Under the pieces are notes generated by a model. It saw only the letters and a program-made list of their open reading frames with translations, ran no database searches and was not told the DNA's origin. DNA of 44,875 nucleotides, taken from contig JAPOUT010000071.1 in the NCBI GenBank assembly GCA_026708545.1, positions 1-44,875 on the forward strand, written 5' to 3'. This document shows positions 1,398-41,092 of the stretch, piece after piece. This DNA is from Hyphomicrobiales bacterium. Its GTDB lineage: Bacteria > Pseudomonadota > Alphaproteobacteria > JAPOUT01. Numbering within the stretch: position 1 is the stretch's first letter; each line of letters begins with the position of its first letter. The position numbers and the translations under genes are program-made.

Positions 1398-2072
1398 CTA
1401 ACTTTTGGGCGGTTGAACGGGAATGTGGAGATAGCGGAACTGTCCGAATTTTCCGGCAACTTTGGAATAATCCCGCCACATCATTCTGTAACGGCCGTGG
1501 AGCCTGATTTTTGGACATGCACGTTTGGTTTTGGTCGCGGTCCTCGGCAGCCATCTAAGGGTTCCCGACACTATGTTTTTTATTTTCCTGTTGTCCCGGG
1601 TAACGGAATCCGCGATGTTGAATTCTTCACCGACCACGCCTGTTCTCTTCGGCCCTTCCCACAAGAAGGGGTCGTTGGTTAGGGTGATGACGTCTGCGTG
1701 CACTCTTCGGGGTTCTTTCTTTCGAATTTTTTCGAGGAATTCTTCCATCCGCTCAATATCCCTTAGCGTGCCGTACCGGCCGGCGTCCGTCGTCGAGGCT
1801 TTTAATTTGAATGTTTGCCCTTCATTTCTATAATCGAGCTTTTGGCAGACATACTTCAACTCAAGCGCCGTTACCTCCCTGTGCCCCCGAAACAGAACGA
1901 GGTCGTAGGCCTCCTTGGATTCGCGCCGGATGGGATATTCGGCAACGGGGCAGAGTTTTGGATGCATTTTGTGTATCTGGAGTATCAACTCAAGCCGAAA
2001 GTCCGCCTCTGAATGAAAAACGGGACGCCTCTTTGCCAGAGCGCTGAGAATTCTCGGAACGTCAAGTCTCAT
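1398..2072 (-). CDS. Hypothetical protein with PD-(D/E)XK nuclease-like core
   Basis: 224 aa ORF; HSEADFRLEL helix followed by YDLVLFRGHREVTALELKY, i.e. conserved Glu, then D...ExK spacing typical of the PD-(D/E)XK fold. Confidence 0.6.
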   Translation of the reverse strand: MRLDVPRILSALAKRRPVFHSEADFRLELILQIHKMHPKLCPVAEYPIRRESKEAYDLVLFRGHREVTALELKYVCQKLDYRNEGQTFKLKASTTDAGRYGTLRDIERMEEFLEKIRKKEPRRVHADVITLTNDPFLWEGPKRTGVVGEEFNIADSVTRDNRKIKNIVSGTLRWLPRTATKTKRACPKIRLHGRYRMMWRDYSKVAGKFGQFRYLHIPVQPPKS

Positions 2073-7705: not shown

Positions 7706-10700
7706 CTATCGCCTTTTAACGATGGTGATGCTTGCACGTCCTCCTCCGATGGAAGTTTCCATGCCGATGCCTCCGCCGACGGAGAGATAGATGTTCGGCG
7801 TCATGCGGAAGGATCCCGCAAAGCCGAATGCGTTGCTTGTATCGAAATACCCGTATCCCGCGGTTAGGGAGTATTTTTCGTTGAAGAAAAGGGGAGGGGC
7901 TTGCGATGCCATTGCGATGGCAACGCCGTCGGCGTTTTGGCGCACTTGCAGGAAGGTTTCGCCGCCGTCGGTGGCGAGGTTTCCGTAGAGATCTGTGGTC
8001 ACGATCTCAAGCGGTCCGGACTGCTCTTGCTTGGAAAGGTCGGATACGATGCCGGGAAAGGTGTAGGTGTTTGTGTCGCCGCCGAAGATTTGCTGGTTGT
8101 CGCGGTAGGTTCGTGCGCCCGCGCCGAAGGCCGCGGAGTTGATGTGCGAGGCGAGGGAGCCAACACCAATGGCGGTGGATGCGTATCCCAAGGCGGCGGA
8201 TTGGGTGCCTAGCGCCGTGGACGCGATTCCGGAAGCGGTGGCCTGTTGTCCGAGTGCGGTGGCTTGATGGGCGGTTGCGAGGGCTTCTTCACCCAGAGCC
8301 GTCGAACCGGCGCCGGATGCAACGGAGTCGTTACCGACCGAAGTGGCTTGTGTGCCGGATGCAACGGCGTCCTGTCCGATGGCGACGCTCTCGCGTGCGA
8401 GGGCTCTGGCGGAAGCACCCAGCGAGGTTGAGAAGGTTCCTGTTGCGATGCTCTCTCGTCCGACGGCCGTGGTTTCGTCACCCTTGGCGCGTGAGGATTC
8501 ACCCAGTGCAGTGGCCCCGAGGCCGGAAGCCGACGAGCCGTGCCCCAGAGCGGTCGAGTCGGTTCCCGTTGCGGCGGCCTCCTGCCCGACGGCGGTTGAG
8601 TCGATGCCGTCGGCAAATGAGGATTCACCGAGGGCGGTTGCGCGGAGTTTCGCTGCGGTCGCGCCGCGTCCAAAGGCGGAGGATTGTTGCGCAACCGCGC
8701 GCGAGTTGGTGCCGACGGCGGTTGCATCCCGGACGAGGTTGGAGGTTTCACTGTCTTCGTCCCCGGCGAGAGCGTTTTGCCCGATGGCGACGTTTTTGGT
8801 TCCGCTGGCTTGTGCGCCTTCACCCACGGCGGTTGTGTCTTCCCGGTTGGCGATGGCGTTTCTACCAACGGCGGTTGCACCCTCCTCGGTGGCCTGTGCG
8901 TTTTCTCCAACGGCGGTTGGATCTCTCGTGAGGGCTTGCGCGGATTGTCTGATGAGCATGGTATCCGTTGCGGTTGCGCGGTCGCCGGTTGTCTGCTCGG
9001 CTTCACCAACGGAGGCAGTGGCGATTTCATCAGCAAGGTCCTCCTGACCGGGGGCGGTTGCGCTTTCAAACACGGCCCTTGCGTTTTGTCCGATGACAGT
9101 TGTGTCCTTAAACAGGGCTCTCGCGTCTTGCCCGGCGGCGATTGAATCTATCGCGATGACCTGCGCGTCCTGCTCCGTTGCCGTGGAGCGGGTGCCCGTT
9201 GCGCGTAATGCCTGTCCCAGGGCGGTTGAATCTTCCCGCGTTGTTTGCGCATCTTGCTCCGTCGTGGTCGCGCGGTCGTCGGTTGCCTGCGCGGTTTCAC
9301 CAACGGGGGCGGTGGCGATTTCATCAGCAATGTCCTTCTGACCGGGGGCGGTCGCGTATTCAAACACGGCCCTTGCGTTTTGTCCGACGGCGGTTGTGCC
9401 CTTAAACAGGGCTCTCGCGTCTTGCCCGGCGGCGATTGAATCTATCGCGATGACCTGCGCGTCCTGCTCCGTTGCCGTGGAGCGGGTGCCCGTTGCGCGT
9501 AATGCCTGTCCCAGGGAGGTTGAATCTTCCCGCGTTGTTTGCGTATCTTGCCTCGTCGTGGTCGCGCGGTCGCCGGTTGCCTGCGCGGTTTCACCAACGG
9601 GGGCGGTGGCGATTTCATCAGCAAGGTCCTCCTGACCGGGGGCGGTCGCGTCTTCAAACACGGCTCTTGCATTTTGTCCGATGGCGGTTCTGCTTTTAAA
9701 CAGGGCTCTGGCGTCTTGCCCGGCGGCGGTTGAATCTTCCCGCGTTGTTTGTGCATCTTGCTCCGTCTTGGTCGTGCGGTTGCCGGTTGCCTGCGCGGTT
9801 TCACCAACGGAGGTGATGGCGATTTTATCAGCAAGGTCCTCCTGACCGGGGGCGGTCGCGTATTCAAACACGGCCCTCGCGTTTTGTCCGACGGCGGTTG
9901 TATCCTTAAACAGGGTTCTCACGTCTTGCTCGACGGCGATTGAATCTATCGCGATGACCTGCGCGTCCGGCTCCGTTGCCGTGGAGCGGGTGCTCGTTAC
10001 GCGTAATGCCTGTCCCAGGGAGGTTGAATCTTCCCGCGTTGCCTGCGCGGCTTTGCCAACGGCGGTGGCGTCGGCTTTATTGGCAAGGGCGTCTTTACCG
10101 ACAGCGGTTGCGTGTTCAAACACGGATCTTGCATTTTGTCCGACGGCCGTGGTGTAGGTCCGGGTTGCACGCTCGACCTGACCTATTGCTGTGGAGCGAA
10201 TGTTTGTTGCTTGTGCGCCTTGTCCGAGAGTGGTCGATTTAAGTTTGTTTGCGGTTGAAAAATGTCCGAAGGCGGTGGAGTCGTCTTCGTCGGTTTGCAC
10301 GCCGACCCCGACGACCGTGTTTCTGTTTCCGCCTGCGTTCGCAGACTCGTCGTTTCCATCCGTGTCCGGCGTTGTTTCTCCGATTGCGACGGAGTCGTCG
10401 CTTTCAGCGCGTATGTTCTGTCCGACGGCAACGGTATCTTCGTCTGCGGCCCGAGTGTCTTGTCCGATGACGATTTCGTTGTTTTTGGTTTCATCTTCGG
10501 CGCTATCTTCATCGTCGGCGGTTCCCGCAACGGCTTTTTCCCCGATGGCGATGGTGCTTTCCGTGAGAGCCCGCGCACTGTTTCCGAGTGCGATGATTTT
10601 GTTGTCCGAGGCTCGTGCGCCAGCTTCGGCGCCTTCCGTTTCGTTTGTTCCGCCGATGGCGATAGATTTGCTTCCGAGGGCTTGTGCGCCCGAGCCGAGC

Positions 10701-12430
10701 GCCGTGGAACCGGTGTCCGCTGCAGTGGACCCTCTGCCGACGGCGGTGGCGCTGATTTCCCCGGTGGTGGAGGCTCTACCGACGTTGGTTGCGTTTTCAA
10801 TCGCGGCTCGTGCGAATTGTCCGACCGCGGTTGTATCTTTCGCGGCGGTTTGCGCTTTTTGTCCAAAGGCCGTGGTGTTGCTTCCGAACGCGAGTGATTC
10901 CCGACCTGTTGCGATTGCATTTTCACCCCGGGCTGTTGCGCTCTGCCCGACGGCCATGGAGCGCTCGCGGCTTGCCTGCGTGGCCTCGCCGACGGCAGTG
11001 GTGTCAGTGCCGGTGGTGAAGGCGTCTTTACCGATGGCGGTTGCGTCTCCAAACAAGGCCCGTGCGTTTTGTCCGACGGCCGCGGTGTCGGTTCCGTCCG
11101 CGCATGCGGCCTGATCCGTTGCAGAGGTGTTTTGGTCCGTTGCTTGCGCGTTTTGTCCGACGGCCGTGGCGTCGGTCCCGGTCGTGCACGCGGCCTGACC
11201 CGTTGCGGTGGCGCTTTGGTTTGTTGCTTGCGCGTTTTGTTCCTCTGCCGTGGAGTGGTCTCCGGCTGCCTGCGAGGTTTCACCGATGGCGGTGGTATCG
11301 ACCTTGTTGGCAAGGGCGTTTTTACCGATGGCGGCTGCGCCTTCAAACAAGGCCCGCGCGTTTTGTCCGACGGCCGCGGTGTCGGTCCCGGTTGCGCGCC
11401 CGGTCTGACCCGTTGCGGTATCGCCTTGGTTTGTTGCTTGCGCGTTTTGTTCCTCTGCCGTGAAGTGGTCTCCGGTTGCCTGTGAGGTTTCACCGATGGC
11501 GGTGGTATCGGCCTTGTTGGCAAGGGCGTTTTTACCGATGGCGGCTGCGCCTTCAAACAGGGCCCGCGCGTTTTGTCCGACGGTAGCGGCGTCGGTCACT
11601 GTCGCGCGCGCGGGCTGACCCGTTGCGGTTGCATTTTGGCTCGTAGTCCGTGCATTTTGTTCCGCCGCGGTTGCACGGGTTGCGACGTCATCTTCGGCGC
11701 TGTTGTCGGGGTTGTTTGCCGTTTCCGCAATTGACGCCTGGCCCGTCGCGGTTGAATCCGCCCCTCTTGTTCGCGCGTCTTGTCCGGGGGTCGTGGTGTT
11801 GACCCCGGCCGCAAGCGATATCTGCCCCAGCGCGGTTGCGCCCGCTCCTGTTGCTTGCGCATCCTGTTCCGCCATCGTGGAACTCGTGCCTGTTGCCCGG
11901 GCTGAACTTCCTGGCGCGGCTGAATTTTCTCCCGATGCCGTGGATAAATTATTTGATAACTCGAGTGATGACAGGTCGATATTGCTGCCCGGAGGATCTG
12001 TGTCCGCTGTATGTCGAACGAGCCCTGTTTGCACGTCGGACCCGCTCGTGTCATGTCGGGCGACTTGGGGAGGAGGATCAACCGTACTGCCCCGTTCCTG
12101 CGACTGTCGCAGTATCGATGCGGTTCCAAAAGCATCTCCGCCGCTACCCGGGGAGGATTGTGCGCGGGGTGTGGGGGAATCTCCGGGCTTGTTGCCCGGC
12201 ACTGCGGCGGTCTCGTTGGGTTCAACGGGAGCGGAGGGCAGACGGACCGGTAGCTGCGTACCGGTGCTTTCGACGGCCCTGACGAAGCCTCCACCCGGAA
12301 TATCCGAACCTACGGTCCGCGCGTTTGCGCCGGACAGGATATTGGTCTGCGCGAAAACACCATCGATACCGGCGGTCATCACCGAGCAAGCGACAAGCAA
12401 CGAAAACCTCGCGATTTGTCTCATGAACAA
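7706..12430 (-). CDS. YadA-type trimeric autotransporter adhesin with very long head-repeat region
   Basis: 1574 aa; signal-like MFMRQIARFSLLVACSVMTAGIDGVFAQ; dense 14-residue YadA-head-like repeats (TAVGxxAxATGxxS); C-terminal YadA-anchor-like DGVAIAMASQAPPLFFNEKYSLTAGYGYFDTSNAFGFAGSFRMTPNIYLSVGGGIGM. Confidence 0.9.
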   Translation of the reverse strand: MFMRQIARFSLLVACSVMTAGIDGVFAQTNILSGANARTVGSDIPGGGFVRAVESTGTQLPVRLPSAPVEPNETAAVPGNKPGDSPTPRAQSSPGSGGDAFGTASILRQSQERGSTVDPPPQVARHDTSGSDVQTGLVRHTADTDPPGSNIDLSSLELSNNLSTASGENSAAPGSSARATGTSSTMAEQDAQATGAGATALGQISLAAGVNTTTPGQDARTRGADSTATGQASIAETANNPDNSAEDDVATRATAAEQNARTTSQNATATGQPARATVTDAATVGQNARALFEGAAAIGKNALANKADTTAIGETSQATGDHFTAEEQNAQATNQGDTATGQTGRATGTDTAAVGQNARALFEGAAAIGKNALANKVDTTAIGETSQAAGDHSTAEEQNAQATNQSATATGQAACTTGTDATAVGQNAQATDQNTSATDQAACADGTDTAAVGQNARALFGDATAIGKDAFTTGTDTTAVGEATQASRERSMAVGQSATARGENAIATGRESLAFGSNTTAFGQKAQTAAKDTTAVGQFARAAIENATNVGRASTTGEISATAVGRGSTAADTGSTALGSGAQALGSKSIAIGGTNETEGAEAGARASDNKIIALGNSARALTESTIAIGEKAVAGTADDEDSAEDETKNNEIVIGQDTRAADEDTVAVGQNIRAESDDSVAIGETTPDTDGNDESANAGGNRNTVVGVGVQTDEDDSTAFGHFSTANKLKSTTLGQGAQATNIRSTAIGQVERATRTYTTAVGQNARSVFEHATAVGKDALANKADATAVGKAAQATREDSTSLGQALRVTSTRSTATEPDAQVIAIDSIAVEQDVRTLFKDTTAVGQNARAVFEYATAPGQEDLADKIAITSVGETAQATGNRTTKTEQDAQTTREDSTAAGQDARALFKSRTAIGQNARAVFEDATAPGQEDLADEIATAPVGETAQATGDRATTTRQDTQTTREDSTSLGQALRATGTRSTATEQDAQVIAIDSIAAGQDARALFKGTTAVGQNARAVFEYATAPGQKDIADEIATAPVGETAQATDDRATTTEQDAQTTREDSTALGQALRATGTRSTATEQDAQVIAIDSIAAGQDARALFKDTTVIGQNARAVFESATAPGQEDLADEIATASVGEAEQTTGDRATATDTMLIRQSAQALTRDPTAVGENAQATEEGATAVGRNAIANREDTTAVGEGAQASGTKNVAIGQNALAGDEDSETSNLVRDATAVGTNSRAVAQQSSAFGRGATAAKLRATALGESSFADGIDSTAVGQEAAATGTDSTALGHGSSASGLGATALGESSRAKGDETTAVGRESIATGTFSTSLGASARALARESVAIGQDAVASGTQATSVGNDSVASGAGSTALGEEALATAHQATALGQQATASGIASTALGTQSAALGYASTAIGVGSLASHINSAAFGAGARTYRDNQQIFGGDTNTYTFPGIVSDLSKQEQSGPLEIVTTDLYGNLATDGGETFLQVRQNADGVAIAMASQAPPLFFNEKYSLTAGYGYFDTSNAFGFAGSFRMTPNIYLSVGGGIGMETSIGGGRASITIVKRR
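9052..10150. repeat. In-frame DNA repeats inside the autotransporter head (register 42 bp)
   Basis: The TCAAACACGG landmark recurs at 9066, 9360, 9654, 9864 and 10116: spacings 294, 294, 210 and 252 bp, all multiples of 42 bp (14 codons). Confidence 0.9.
11274..11600. repeat. Second in-frame repeat pair in the autotransporter head (210-bp period)
   Basis: GAGGTTTCACCGATGGCGGTGGTATCG.. at 11274 and 11484, 210 bp apart (5 x 42), nearly identical over more than 100 bp. Confidence 0.85.
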
Positions 12431-21993: not shown

Positions 21994-22025
21994 GGAGCGT
22001 TTGCACAAAAAGGGGTTAAACTCGT

Positions 22026-23096
22026 TTAGTCTTCCCAATCATCGTCAAAACTCATTCCATGTGTATCGTCTTGTCCGTAGAGTGCCTGTCGATGCAAATG
22101 GATGTTTACACGCGAAGTTGTATTTTTTTGAGAGGAGTCGATGCCAATTTCCTTGCCAATGGTAGCAGTTCGACGAATCATTTCCACACCCAAGGTGTCT
22201 AAATCGTCATCCCAAATTTCCTTGTTGTGGATAAGTTCTTGCGCTGCTCTTTTAAAATCCCATCCTTCGTTTAAATTTCGCACGATATACCAAGTATCGT
22301 CTAAAGGGTAGTCAATTCGATCTTTGGGAAGGCGGGCAAAATCATTGCCTTCTCGAGGGCGTGTACTGCCCCAATCACCATAGATAATGGAAGATCGGTT
22401 TGATTTTTGTTGGAGTTGTTGCACTAACTGCCTATTATGAAATTGAACTGGGCTGATGCCGCTAAAACGAGAGAATTCTTTAGGTATTGACGCGCATGAA
22501 ACAACGACGGGAATACTGGCATCTATTCTCTGCAATCCTCCGGTTATCAATCCGTCAAACCAAACAGAGAGGCTGAGCACATTTTCCGTCCACCCTCCTT
22601 CCAGAATAACAGTGAAATCTGCCGAGCCTGCAACGGTAAATGCAGAAACAATTTTATCAAAATTATCTGGAAATCGGTTAATCTCAATTCTCATGCAGTA
22701 TTGTCTTCCAAGTTTTTGTGTGGCTTCGATTTGTTGTCTGATTTCTATTTCACTTTTGCCTTTAACTTGGATACAAGGAAATATGTGATCGCTATCCTTA
22801 ATAAACTCAATCCACTCTGTCCAATTTGCAGGGTCAGATAAATAATTTAATTCTTTTTGTGCGGGGTCGTCCAGGTTGGTGTACTGGTAATCTCTATCTA
22901 TGTCTAGAAAGTAATTTCGATTTGGAAAAGCTTTTTCTGCACGTTCAATGGCGCGTTTTAAGGAGCTAGTGCCGACCCAGGGAGCTAGCAGGATACAAGG
23001 TGTCATTCGATCTTTAATTTTTCCCGATAAGAACTCAAGTCCCTTCATTTCACTAGGACGCATCGCTAAGGTGGGCACGTAGTTCTTCGGGAACAT
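22026..23096 (-). CDS. Beta family protein (Beta_protein-like)
   Basis: Starts NYVPTLAMRPSEMKGLEFL; barrel-like CMRIEINRF / FTVILEGGWTE / VVVSCASIPKEF / IIYGDWGSTRPR; adjacent to ImmA/IrrE. Confidence 0.7.
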   Translation of the reverse strand: MFPKNYVPTLAMRPSEMKGLEFLSGKIKDRMTPCILLAPWVGTSSLKRAIERAEKAFPNRNYFLDIDRDYQYTNLDDPAQKELNYLSDPANWTEWIEFIKDSDHIFPCIQVKGKSEIEIRQQIEATQKLGRQYCMRIEINRFPDNFDKIVSAFTVAGSADFTVILEGGWTENVLSLSVWFDGLITGGLQRIDASIPVVVSCASIPKEFSRFSGISPVQFHNRQLVQQLQQKSNRSSIIYGDWGSTRPREGNDFARLPKDRIDYPLDDTWYIVRNLNEGWDFKRAAQELIHNKEIWDDDLDTLGVEMIRRTATIGKEIGIDSSQKNTTSRVNIHLHRQALYGQDDTHGMSFDDDWED

Positions 23097-23121
23097 TTTA
23101 CTTAGCGCCTTCCCGAGACTT

Positions 23122-23628
23122 TTACGAGAAGTTACTCAAGCGAATTTCCATTGCAGCCTTCGAAACTTGAAATCGCTCTGCGAGATTTTCGATTGTCTCT
23201 TCAGTTACCGTTTTATTGAAGTTTTCACGCAGCGTTTCTTCAATTTGAGACGTCGGCATAACAATTTCCGCAGCTAAACGGTTAGCCTCATATTCGGTGT
23301 TTTCTGGTGCACCGGACCTATACAGAACATTGTCGGTAATTCCTTCAGCGGATATGTCGATTAATTTTTTATGAAGCATAAAGTGTGCAAGCTCATGAGC
23401 AATAGTGAATCTTTGCCGCTCTCGTGCTTCATAGCGGTTTACCCGAATGATATATCCGCTTTCTTCATTCTTAATCTGCCCAGAAATCCCCGTAGGCATA
23501 CCGGAAACCTTAATCTTCACATTCAGTTCTTTTGCTATTTGTCCCACCTTTACAGGATATTCTGATAAATATTTTTCGAGTATTTCTCGGTGTTCCTGGC
23601 TTAAGCGATTCCACTCTTTTGGTTTCAT
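23122..23628 (-). CDS. ImmA/IrrE family metallo-endopeptidase
   Basis: RFTIAHELAHFMLHKK (HExxH) plus EYEANRLAAEIVMP third-ligand motif. Confidence 0.92.
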   Translation of the reverse strand: MKPKEWNRLSQEHREILEKYLSEYPVKVGQIAKELNVKIKVSGMPTGISGQIKNEESGYIIRVNRYEARERQRFTIAHELAHFMLHKKLIDISAEGITDNVLYRSGAPENTEYEANRLAAEIVMPTSQIEETLRENFNKTVTEETIENLAERFQVSKAAMEIRLSNFS

Positions 23629-23640
23629 TGTTCCTGGCTC

Positions 23641-24033
23641 CTAACTTGCATTTGTATCGTTCGAAGGAGAACTTTCCCTATCACTTGGTGTTTGTTGCTC
23701 TGGTCCAATTCCAGCGAATACAATTCTGGCGACAAAATCTTTTACATACTTTTCTGTCAGTGTCTCTTCTATCTTGGTGATTGCAGATTTTTGTGCTTCC
23801 TGTTTGATTTCACGGAAAGTGAATACTGCCACGACCGTAATCCCAATAGCAAGAGCTGTCAGAACCACCGTGATGGCTGTCATCATCACACCAATGAAAT
23901 TAATGTAGACAGGTAATTTGAAATCCACTTCCTCTTGAATGCCCGGGATGCTGTTGAGAATACCAAGCGAAATGAACAAATAAACAACCACAGCCCCACC
24001 AATGAAGCTAATGATTCCCACAGTAATCTTCAT
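23641..24033 (-). CDS. Small membrane protein with two predicted TM segments
   Basis: Hydrophobic segments ITVGIISFIGGAVVVYLFISLGIL and NFIGVMMTAITVVLTALAIGITVVAVF, then a polar C-terminal tail; 12 nt upstream of the ImmA/IrrE gene. Confidence 0.7.
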   Translation of the reverse strand: MKITVGIISFIGGAVVVYLFISLGILNSIPGIQEEVDFKLPVYINFIGVMMTAITVVLTALAIGITVVAVFTFREIKQEAQKSAITKIEETLTEKYVKDFVARIVFAGIGPEQQTPSDRESSPSNDTNAS

Positions 24034-24081
24034 GTATTATGCCCCTAGCGTTAGGTTTACGTTTCTTACTTGGTAAGTCTA

Positions 24082-24972
24082 TCATTTCCGCTGTCTTAAG
24101 TCAAGCTTTTTGCGTGTTTCTTCCGGGCTGATGACTCGCGCACCCATGTTCTCGATAATGGTGACGGCTTTTTCCACCAGCGAACCGTTGGAAGCGGGAA
24201 CGCCTTTCTCGATCCAGAGGTTGTCCTCGAGTCCAACGCGCACATTCCCGCCAAGCAAGACGGCTTGTGCGACCATCGGCATTTGTGCCGCGCCAATGCC
24301 AAAGCCCGACCACACTGCTCCGGCGGGGATGCGGTCGCGCATGCTCATCATTGCGGCAGTATCGGCAGGTGCACCCCACGGAATGCCCAAGCATATTTGA
24401 TAGAGGGCCGGATCCTCAAGAAGGCCTTCTTTGTGCATGCGTTCGGCAAACCAAACGTGCCCGCTGTCGAAACATTCGAGTTCGGGACGAACGCCGAGTT
24501 CGCGGATGCGTTTGGCCCCGGCACGCAACATGTCGGGCGTGGAGACGAAAATCATGGACCCGTCGCCGAAGTTCAGCGTGCCGCAATCAAGCGAGCATAT
24601 CTCCGGTAACAACTCTTCCACATGTGCAAGCCGTGTGATGGGACCGACGAGGTCCGTGTTTTCACCGAGTTCGAGGGGTGTTTCGCCGGTGCCGATGTCC
24701 ATGTCGCCGCCCATCCCGGAGGTGAGGTTGATGATGACATCGCGATTGCCGGAGCGTACACGCTCGACAACCTCGCGATAGAGATGGACGTCGCGGCAGC
24801 CTTTTCCGGTCTCGGGGTTGCGGACATGGATGTGGGCGATGGCCGCACCGGCATCCGCCGCCTCAAGTGCGGCGGCGGCGATTTGCTCAGGCGTGACAGG
24901 GATGGCAGGGTGCCTGCCGACGGTATCGCCCGAGCCGGTCACGGCACAGGTGATGAAGACTTCCCGATTCAT
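24082..24972 (-). CDS. BKACE (beta-keto acid cleavage enzyme, DUF849) family protein
   Basis: [76 protein letters not shown]. Confidence 0.92.
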
Positions 24973-39448: not shown

Positions 39449-39702
39449 TGGGCCGGTCTGCAGGCACTGCCGGGCAAGACCCGGTTCGCCGAAGATGCAG
39501 TCTTTTTGCTTTTAATTCGCTCGGTTACAAGGTTTTCGCGGCGTTTCGGCGGTGTCCGGTCGGCTTCAGAGGGTCCGAAAACCGGTGGAACGGGGCGATT
39601 TGTTCGAATTGAACGGGACTTTTGGCGGAAATGTGAATAGCGGCGGAATTCCTGAATTTCGGGCGGTTGCAAGCCCAGACAGGATGCCCAAAAACCCCAC
39701 GG

Positions 39703-39897
39703 TTATCGCTTGCTTTTCATGATGTTGAGTATAAAAACATCGTGCTCTCTTCGATGAGCTTCGATAAAAGTGTCAAGTTTAATGCCAACCTTTTCGATAT
39801 CGGTCTTGATTGACGATATGCGCCCTGACAAATGCCATACACCGGCTATGACAGCCACTATTACGGTGAATATGATTGACATTGTCGGTATCAGCAC
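39703..39897 (-). CDS. Small hypothetical membrane protein
   Basis: 64 aa: one TM (IIFTVIVAVIAGVWHL) plus charged coiled-coil-like tail; no overlapping stronger ORF. Confidence 0.45.
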   Translation of the reverse strand: MLIPTMSIIFTVIVAVIAGVWHLSGRISSIKTDIEKVGIKLDTFIEAHRREHDVFILNIMKSKR

Positions 39898-40167
39898 TTC
39901 TTTGCCTCCGTTGCAGTCGGACCGCGCTACGGGTGACTCGAATCATTTACATGAATCAAATACCCGCGTCAATCGTAAGCGCACGGGAATCCCGTTGCAA
40001 GTTTTCCCTTATCCGGACATGGAGTAGTTTGGATACGGCATCCGCTACACGATTTTGTCAGGGGTTTGAGTAGCAAATGACTCAAAAGGTGATTCGGGTT
40101 GATTCCCCTGTAACATTCCTTCATCGCCGGAATTATCCCTTTAGTTATACTGATTCGCCGGGTAGTA

Positions 40168-40362
40168 TTAGCCTTGCCCTGATGACAAACCCGCAGAACC
40201 GCCTGTATTGCAGTTAGAGACGCTTGATTCGGTCTCCACAGCCCGCCTATGTTCGGGTTGCTTGCTCGTCCGGAGGCGTTTACGGGTCTGCCGGGCTGTT
40301 TCGGTGAGTAGGCGCAATACTTCGGCGCGTGTAAATGTTTCTTTACTTGCGAAATCGGCCAT
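40168..40362 (-). CDS. Hypothetical small protein (low confidence)
   Basis: 64 aa ORF MADFASKETFTRAEVLRLLTETARQTRKRLR...; no clear RBS. Confidence 0.25.
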   Translation of the reverse strand: MADFASKETFTRAEVLRLLTETARQTRKRLRTSKQPEHRRAVETESSVSNCNTGGSAGLSSGQG

Positions 40363-40450
40363 TGACGATTCGACTTTACCAAGCTTTAATCACGGGTATG
40401 GCTATTGGTTTAGTCAAATCACAAATAAATATTATCAAAGGAGTAGAAAC

Positions 40451-40705
40451 ATGAAGACAATACTGACGACAATCTTCGTAATTGCCGTGATGGTTTTTAC
40501 GTTTAACACGAACCTTGTAATCGCAATTGAAGGCAAGACACCCACTTGTGTTCAAAGAAACGCTAATGGTGATTGTACAAAAACTAGATGGGTGGAAAAC
40601 GAAGTTGACAGACTTAATGACCCCGACCAAGCAGGCAACGAAAACGAAGTGGCCGATTCAAGTGGCGAGGGTGCCGCATCGGCAGCACAGGAAAGCGACC
40701 AGTAA
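40451..40705 (+). CDS. Small secreted/periplasmic hypothetical protein (84 aa)
   Basis: AAAGGAGTAGAAACATG RBS-start; signal-peptide-like MKTILTTIFVIAVMVFTFNTNLVIAIEG; mature part acidic with two Cys. Confidence 0.65.
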   Translation: MKTILTTIFVIAVMVFTFNTNLVIAIEGKTPTCVQRNANGDCTKTRWVENEVDRLNDPDQAGNENEVADSSGEGAASAAQESDQ

Positions 40706-40745
40706 TGGCGTAATCCCCTAACTGCGTCCATTACTTGGGGGCGCA

Positions 40746-40850
40746 AATCAAATCCCCGATTCTGTTAAAATCAGTGTCGGGGGTTTCTTTAAGGAGAAAC
40801 CCTGGCCGAAAAGAAATATTCACAAGAAACGGCTAGGGGTTTATTTGATT
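40746..40850 (+). ncRNA. Candidate structured RNA / terminator complex downstream of the small secreted protein gene
   Basis: Outer stem AATCAAAT (40746-40753)/ATTTGATT (40843-40850) encloses three consecutive hairpins: CCCCGA..TCGGGG (40754-40782), GTTTCTT..GGAGAAAC (40783-40800), CTGGCCG..CGGCTAG (40802-40836). Confidence 0.4.
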
Positions 40851-41092
40851 CTGTTTATCTGCGTAGAAAAGGTCTTGTGATTCTGCCGTTTTTGCCCCGT
40901 CTGTCCGGTTCGGTATAGGCTGCCGGGTTTTGCAGTCTCGCAGCCACCGGCGCATCCGTCCGTTTGCCGGTATCAGTAATCCGTTCCAAATACGAAACAA
41001 ATCCCGGGCTGAGTTGTAGTGGCCGAATTAACGGATTACGGCGGTTGGGACACGAACCTTGAACGAATCCGTCAAAATTGTAGTATTTTCCC

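Follow-up and report, generated by a model that had tools for sequence, protein, structure and literature searches.

Introduction

Two described systems come closest to the locus analysed here. The gop-beta-cII genes of P4 protect against lambda and P1, and Gop is toxic when Beta is absent (PMC9122126). PD-lambda-2 consists of a HigB-like protein (A), an Xre-IrrE peptidase (B) and a P4-antitoxin-like protein (C); B is toxic alone and is rescued by A, while C is needed for defence and not for neutralisation (PMC9519451). We found no account in the open-access literature of what Beta does at the molecular level.

ImmA/IrrE (M78) peptidases usually cleave helix-turn-helix (HTH) repressors (PMC2701414; PMC10904395). 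In PprI, a C-terminal GAF-like domain is required for activation by ssDNA (PMC10904395). The paper of Makarova et al., in its available portion, describes Xre and RelE or PIN proteins as partners of COG2856 peptidases and names neither Beta nor a membrane partner (PMC2701414).

Here, we describe an operon that joins a Beta protein to an M78 peptidase and a small protein with two predicted transmembrane segments (the two-TM protein). Its pieces are known, because Beta shares its family with the P4 antitoxin of Gop-Beta-CII and probably with PD-lambda-2 C, but its arrangement (a two-TM protein that is not Gop, an IrrE without Xre, and an optional CII) fits neither system. A first-pass annotation had called the cassette a candidate undescribed defence or stress-switch system. 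'Undescribed' was too strong, since toxin-like partners of a Beta-type protein are already known from both Gop-Beta-CII and PD-lambda-2; we found no description of the TM-IrrE-Beta arrangement itself in the open-access literature or the 2023 PADLOC models, and one may exist elsewhere.

Results

The window, by which we mean the whole 44,875-nt stretch of Hyphomicrobiales DNA that was analysed, is contig C59 of a 2.26-Mb assembly. It carries a co-directional trio on the minus strand, running from the two-TM gene through the ImmA/IrrE peptidase gene to the Beta gene:

23641..24033, minus strand: gene 1, small two-TM membrane protein of 130 aa, the proposed effector (hydropathy, AlphaFold2, homologues 5' of IrrE-Beta)
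23122..23628, minus strand: gene 2, short ImmA/IrrE (M78) peptidase of 168 aa (Pfam, PADLOC capP, zinc-site conservation)
22026..23096, minus strand: gene 3, Beta protein of the P4 Beta family, 356 aa, with a TIM-barrel-like alpha/beta model (Pfam, PADLOC beta, identity to P4 Beta, model)
24076..24104, minus strand: promoter-like TTGACT-17-TAGACT upstream of gene 1 (by sequence; such sites are no more frequent in the region than chance predicts)
21994..24103, no strand: AT-rich stretch, homologous at neither edge to G001, a genome of the same genus, and taken as the extent of the inserted or rearranged segment (GC content and G001 alignment)

The first-pass description of three tightly spaced, co-directional, AT-rich genes is borne out in its coordinates, its gaps of 12 and 25 nt and its composition. 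The cassette has a GC content of 41.9% versus 57.9% in the flanks, with bins of 41-43% in the cassette and of ~57-62% for most neighbours.

The two-TM protein has no significant Pfam family match and no PADLOC match. Hydropathy and modelling predict an N-terminal transmembrane segment, a second at about residues 53-71, a long cytoplasmic helix and a polar tail. The AlphaFold2 model (mean pLDDT 74) places helices at 2-22 and 41-91, the second transmembrane segment continuing as the long helix, and predicts the tail poorly. Against the PADLOC gop model the protein gave no match up to E=1, whereas P4 Gop itself scores 4.8e-70, and hhalign of the TM family against Gop returned a probability of 0.6%.

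Gene 2 matches Pfam Peptidase_M78 (9.5e-22) and has an HExxH motif at residues 78-82, with E112 as the likely third zinc ligand; H78, E79, H82 and E112 are conserved in 84-85 of 86 peptidase sequences. The protein ends after the M78 domain and has neither an Xre nor a GAF-like domain. Its best PADLOC model is capP (2.6e-32, covering only positions 3-153 of 242), and its match to the 402-position PD-lambda-2 B model is confined to positions 292-369.

Gene 3 is a full-length homologue of P4 Beta (26% identity over 99%, tblastn 2e-19) and matches Pfam Beta_protein at 5e-57, PADLOC beta at 6.8e-39 and, over part of the profile only, PD-Lambda-2_C at 3.2e-5. AlphaFold2 models Beta as a TIM-barrel-like fold of alternating alpha and beta elements (mean pLDDT 93). 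The best PDB matches are mostly TIM barrels, all distant (best E 1.2e-3, TM-scores ~0.3-0.4), and there is one strong viral match, to a Gordonia phage protein (E 2.6e-13). We reject a membrane beta barrel on the strength of this model; in that sense, the barrel-like Beta protein of the earlier reading finds no support. Invariant residues include D241, D262, R329, N331, H333 and Q337. Conserved residues are not enriched at strand C-ends, which hold 7 of the 24 conserved polar or aromatic residues versus 25% of all positions, and since they do not cluster as in a TIM-barrel active site we claim no catalysis.

How does the cassette compare with the known systems? Like Gop-Beta-CII, it has a small protein, hydrophobic in its N-terminal segments, encoded directly upstream in an operon with Beta, and a convergent CII (sce7726) gene directly follows Beta in 22 of 85 IrrE-Beta adjacencies. 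Unlike Gop-Beta-CII, it has no detectable Gop homologue, its membrane protein and Beta are separated by an M78 peptidase, and in the window the gene after Beta is an acyl-CoA dehydrogenase gene rather than CII. With PD-lambda-2 it shares a three-gene operon in which an ImmA/IrrE peptidase is directly followed by a Beta-type protein; however, its peptidase lacks Xre and its first gene encodes a two-TM protein, not a HigB-like one. The peptidase also resembles CapP of the CapH/CapP pair that controls CBASS, as its closest PADLOC model, and has the same M78 zinc site as CapP and as IrrE (PprI) of the IrrE/DdrO pair. In contrast to both pairs, the cassette has no HTH repressor partner, CBASS cyclase or C-terminal sensor domain. 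Loci of the PD-lambda-2 B-C type do occur: two Xre-IrrE-Beta loci in the window's class (L009:216-3115 and L015:186-2595, the former with a convergent CII gene) score 8.8e-81 and 7.6e-66 against PD-Lambda-2_B.

The first-pass annotation had proposed asking whether the three genes travel together elsewhere, and they do. A Beta alignment of the window type, scanned over 85,462 species with one genome each, yielded 79 loci. All searches pooled gave 85 IrrE-Beta adjacencies (one split Beta counted twice), and 79 of these have a TM homologue directly 5' in the same direction, a count that is conditional because the query was built from IrrE-linked Betas. The hosts are diverse Alphaproteobacteria and some Gammaproteobacteria. 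The six adjacencies without a TM match comprise two cut contigs (L070, L072), two broken copies (L008, L099), the second of two tandem copies (L051) and one with a diverged hydrophobic ORF (L016). The tandem arrangement, in a gammaproteobacterial MAG (L051:4219-9013), consists of one additional IrrE gene, one complete TM-IrrE-Beta unit and a further IrrE-Beta pair. Chance neighbourhood is rejected by the recurrence of the order in these adjacencies and in IMG/VR. As had been noted from the window alone, no HTH gene belongs to the conserved unit.

The unit is patchily distributed. When the whole Pfam Beta family was searched over 387 genomes of the window's class, 11 had a Beta: five as TM-IrrE-Beta, two as Xre-IrrE-Beta, three with CII and one alone. 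In one of the two Xre-IrrE-Beta genomes (G301) there is, in addition, a TM-IrrE-Beta copy that is broken (L074). Applied to 399 genomes sampled from across the phylum, the Beta alignment found matches in five; three of these were new and carry IrrE-Beta-CII, and in two of the three a TM gene is recognisable.

Aligned promoters of the closest relatives show TTGACA followed by GAAC-N7-GAAC, which is the LexA box of Alphaproteobacteria. Both the window's genome and G001 have this box in front of recA and, in two copies, in front of lexA. Of 74 loci, 36 have a perfect box between positions -150 and +45 relative to the start of the TM gene, compared with 13 of 381 starts of other ORFs at these loci (Fisher P=4e-22, an optimistic value since the loci are related). 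On the Beta tree the box occurs in separate clades, with at least six changes on well-supported branches alone. These sites suggest that LexA probably represses the operon in many alphaproteobacterial hosts. The window's own promoter lacks a box (GTTC-N7-GTTC), its TTGACT-17-TAGACT lying at about the site where many relatives have TTGACA and the box, and the gammaproteobacterial copies have no E. coli-type LexA box within one mismatch. CII-bearing copies form one clade of the Beta tree, mostly without the box. The notion that CII and the LexA box are alternative regulators was dropped, as their anticorrelation is mainly a clade effect.

TM-IrrE-Beta is a real, conserved and mobile three-gene unit. 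It was present in all ten IMG/VR matches, one of them cut off before the TM gene, and the neighbours of these copies include terminase, portal, tail and integrase genes. A conjugative plasmid of Neorhizobium carries the unit too, and insertion-sequence genes break up the copy in a record of Aeromonas caviae. When 135 flanks were compared all-against-all, only nine pairs had more than 300 nt in common. In 69 of 71 loci the AT content of the cassette exceeds that of its surroundings, with a mean difference of 9.5 points. On the Beta tree, copies from different families, and one from a gammaproteobacterial MAG, nest inside otherwise different groups, and the copies nearest to the window's Beta come from Paracoccus and Actibacterium (62% identity).

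The unit also keeps company with defence genes. The proteins encoded immediately beside it, 118 in all, match 113 PADLOC families at E<=1e-8, compared with 10 families, mostly weak (best 2e-36), among 108 ordinary ORFs of the same class; overlapping PADLOC models inflate the 113, so this comparison is qualitative. Very strong matches include GajB, a type III methyltransferase, PD-T7-1, PDC-S06, PDC-S28, MzaA and DRT RTasHel, and Pfam adds integrases, resolvases and EcoRII-C. The mad3 family, equally frequent in neighbours and control, carries no weight.

In the window, the cassette sits at a synteny breakpoint. G001, a sister species and the only same-genus genome compared, has no Beta gene. 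Its acyl-CoA dehydrogenase block aligns up to 21993 on a contig (C46) that ends 59 nt past the start of that gene, and its BKACE block, on a separate contig (C36), aligns from 24104 rightwards and then runs into unrelated genes. A comparison of insertion ends, which the first-pass annotation had recommended, finds homology stopping at both cassette edges, 21993 and 24104. The cassette does lie between the BKACE and acyl-CoA dehydrogenase genes as then described, but the metabolic cluster in which it was said to be embedded is not conserved in G001. Vertical inheritance as part of that cluster is rejected by the absence of Beta from G001 and the break in synteny on both sides. Since DNA identity to G001 is ~85-88% on both sides, each flank belongs to the window's lineage. 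We saw no convincing terminal or target-site repeats at the cassette ends.

Other features of the same assembly may be recorded here. Two further M78 peptidase genes (L144, L145) lie ~2.3 kb apart at G000:C50:10801-13794. In the window itself, a 1574-aa repetitive ORF (7706-12430, minus strand) resembles, by eye, a YadA-type trimeric autotransporter; a 224-aa ORF (1398-2072, minus strand) in an AT-richer stretch has a possible PD-(D/E)XK-like ELK motif; and a second AT-rich stretch (39500-41000, 46-49% GC) holds short ORFs only.

Discussion

What might such a unit do? Our best reading, to which we give roughly an even chance, is a protease-gated, mobile, toxin-antitoxin-like defence operon with a membrane effector. 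A defence role is suggested because the gene order is conserved, the neighbours include phage and defence genes, the unit is AT-rich, Beta has precedents in known systems and many copies have LexA boxes. From relatives and context we infer this role, the toxicity of the TM protein, the substrate and signal of the peptidase, and LexA binding. The two-TM protein would be the membrane-acting effector, and Beta its cognate control protein, whether antitoxin, sensor or both, in the manner of P4 Beta with Gop. The switch would be the short IrrE: triggered by a phage or DNA-damage signal, it would cleave one of its partners, Beta or the TM protein's soluble tail, thereby freeing the effector and arresting the infected cell, a form of membrane-acting abortive infection. 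Where LexA represses the operon, as we propose for many alphaproteobacterial hosts, DNA damage would also raise its dose, and a convergent CII (sce7726) gene is found in one sub-clade. Two observations weigh against this reading: no homology between the TM protein and Gop could be detected, and the window's copy has no LexA box.

The roles may also be distributed differently, because the part of PD-lambda-2 that proved toxic on overexpression is its Xre-IrrE protein and C is not required to neutralise it. By analogy, the peptidase could be the toxic part, the two-TM protein could tether it to the membrane or neutralise it, and Beta could sense phage. We consider this unlikely, though the foremost alternative. 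In PD-lambda-2, B is toxic alone, A rescues and C serves defence only (PMC9519451), and the order of a small first gene, a peptidase and a Beta-type protein is the same. However, the cassette's peptidase has no Xre part and corresponds to only a small portion of the PD-lambda-2 B model, the cassette's first gene is not HigB-like, and in P4 the first, hydrophobic protein is the toxin (PMC9122126).

Alternatively, the unit could serve prophages, plasmids and islands for addiction or for the control of superinfection, stabilising its carrier, with phage protection secondary or absent. Copies on phage contigs and a conjugative plasmid would fit such a role, as would the boxes before the TM gene of many relatives; LexA boxes are also usual in prophage regulation. 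Yet many copies are chromosomal, with no obvious element genes nearby, and adjoin other defence genes, which makes this explanation rather improbable.

A host stress-response regulator of the IrrE/DdrO kind, with a repressor from another locus as the protein cleaved by IrrE and with the membrane and Beta proteins as sensors, is less probable again. It draws on the usual cleavage of HTH repressors by M78 peptidases (PMC2701414; PMC10904395), but the conserved unit has no HTH gene, only 11 of 387 class genomes have any Beta, the flanks are unrelated and the GC content is low. That the window's own copy is decayed or misassembled and functionless is very improbable: it lacks a LexA box and lies where synteny breaks in a fragmented assembly, and about half a dozen relatives are broken, but its three reading frames and zinc site are intact and both flanks are of the window's lineage.

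The cassette could represent a third, widespread branch of Beta-centred immunity. We advance this broader idea tentatively, and it may well prove wrong. In such a branch an M78 peptidase would act on a non-HTH partner, Beta or the membrane protein, and unleash a membrane effector, with expression tied to SOS in many of the hosts; the core common to Gop-Beta-CII, PD-lambda-2 and the cassette would be Beta, joined by CII in some branches. Gop-Beta-CII and PD-lambda-2 were reported separately, and an operon that keeps Beta and swaps its partners offers a comparative handle on Beta. It also offers an ImmA/IrrE peptidase without a repressor partner in its own operon, and its boxes would link the Beta-IrrE module to the SOS response in Alphaproteobacteria.

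A minor observation concerns CII. The CII/sce7726 proteins of three loci (L005:1746-2540, L014:76-858, L016:855-1451) have only weak Pfam matches, to HSDR_N_2 and SduA_C, and share an RRxDxA...EIKSD motif like that of PD-(D/E)XK nucleases. Going by this motif, the 'CII' of P4 may have a nuclease fold and not be a regulator of the CII type.
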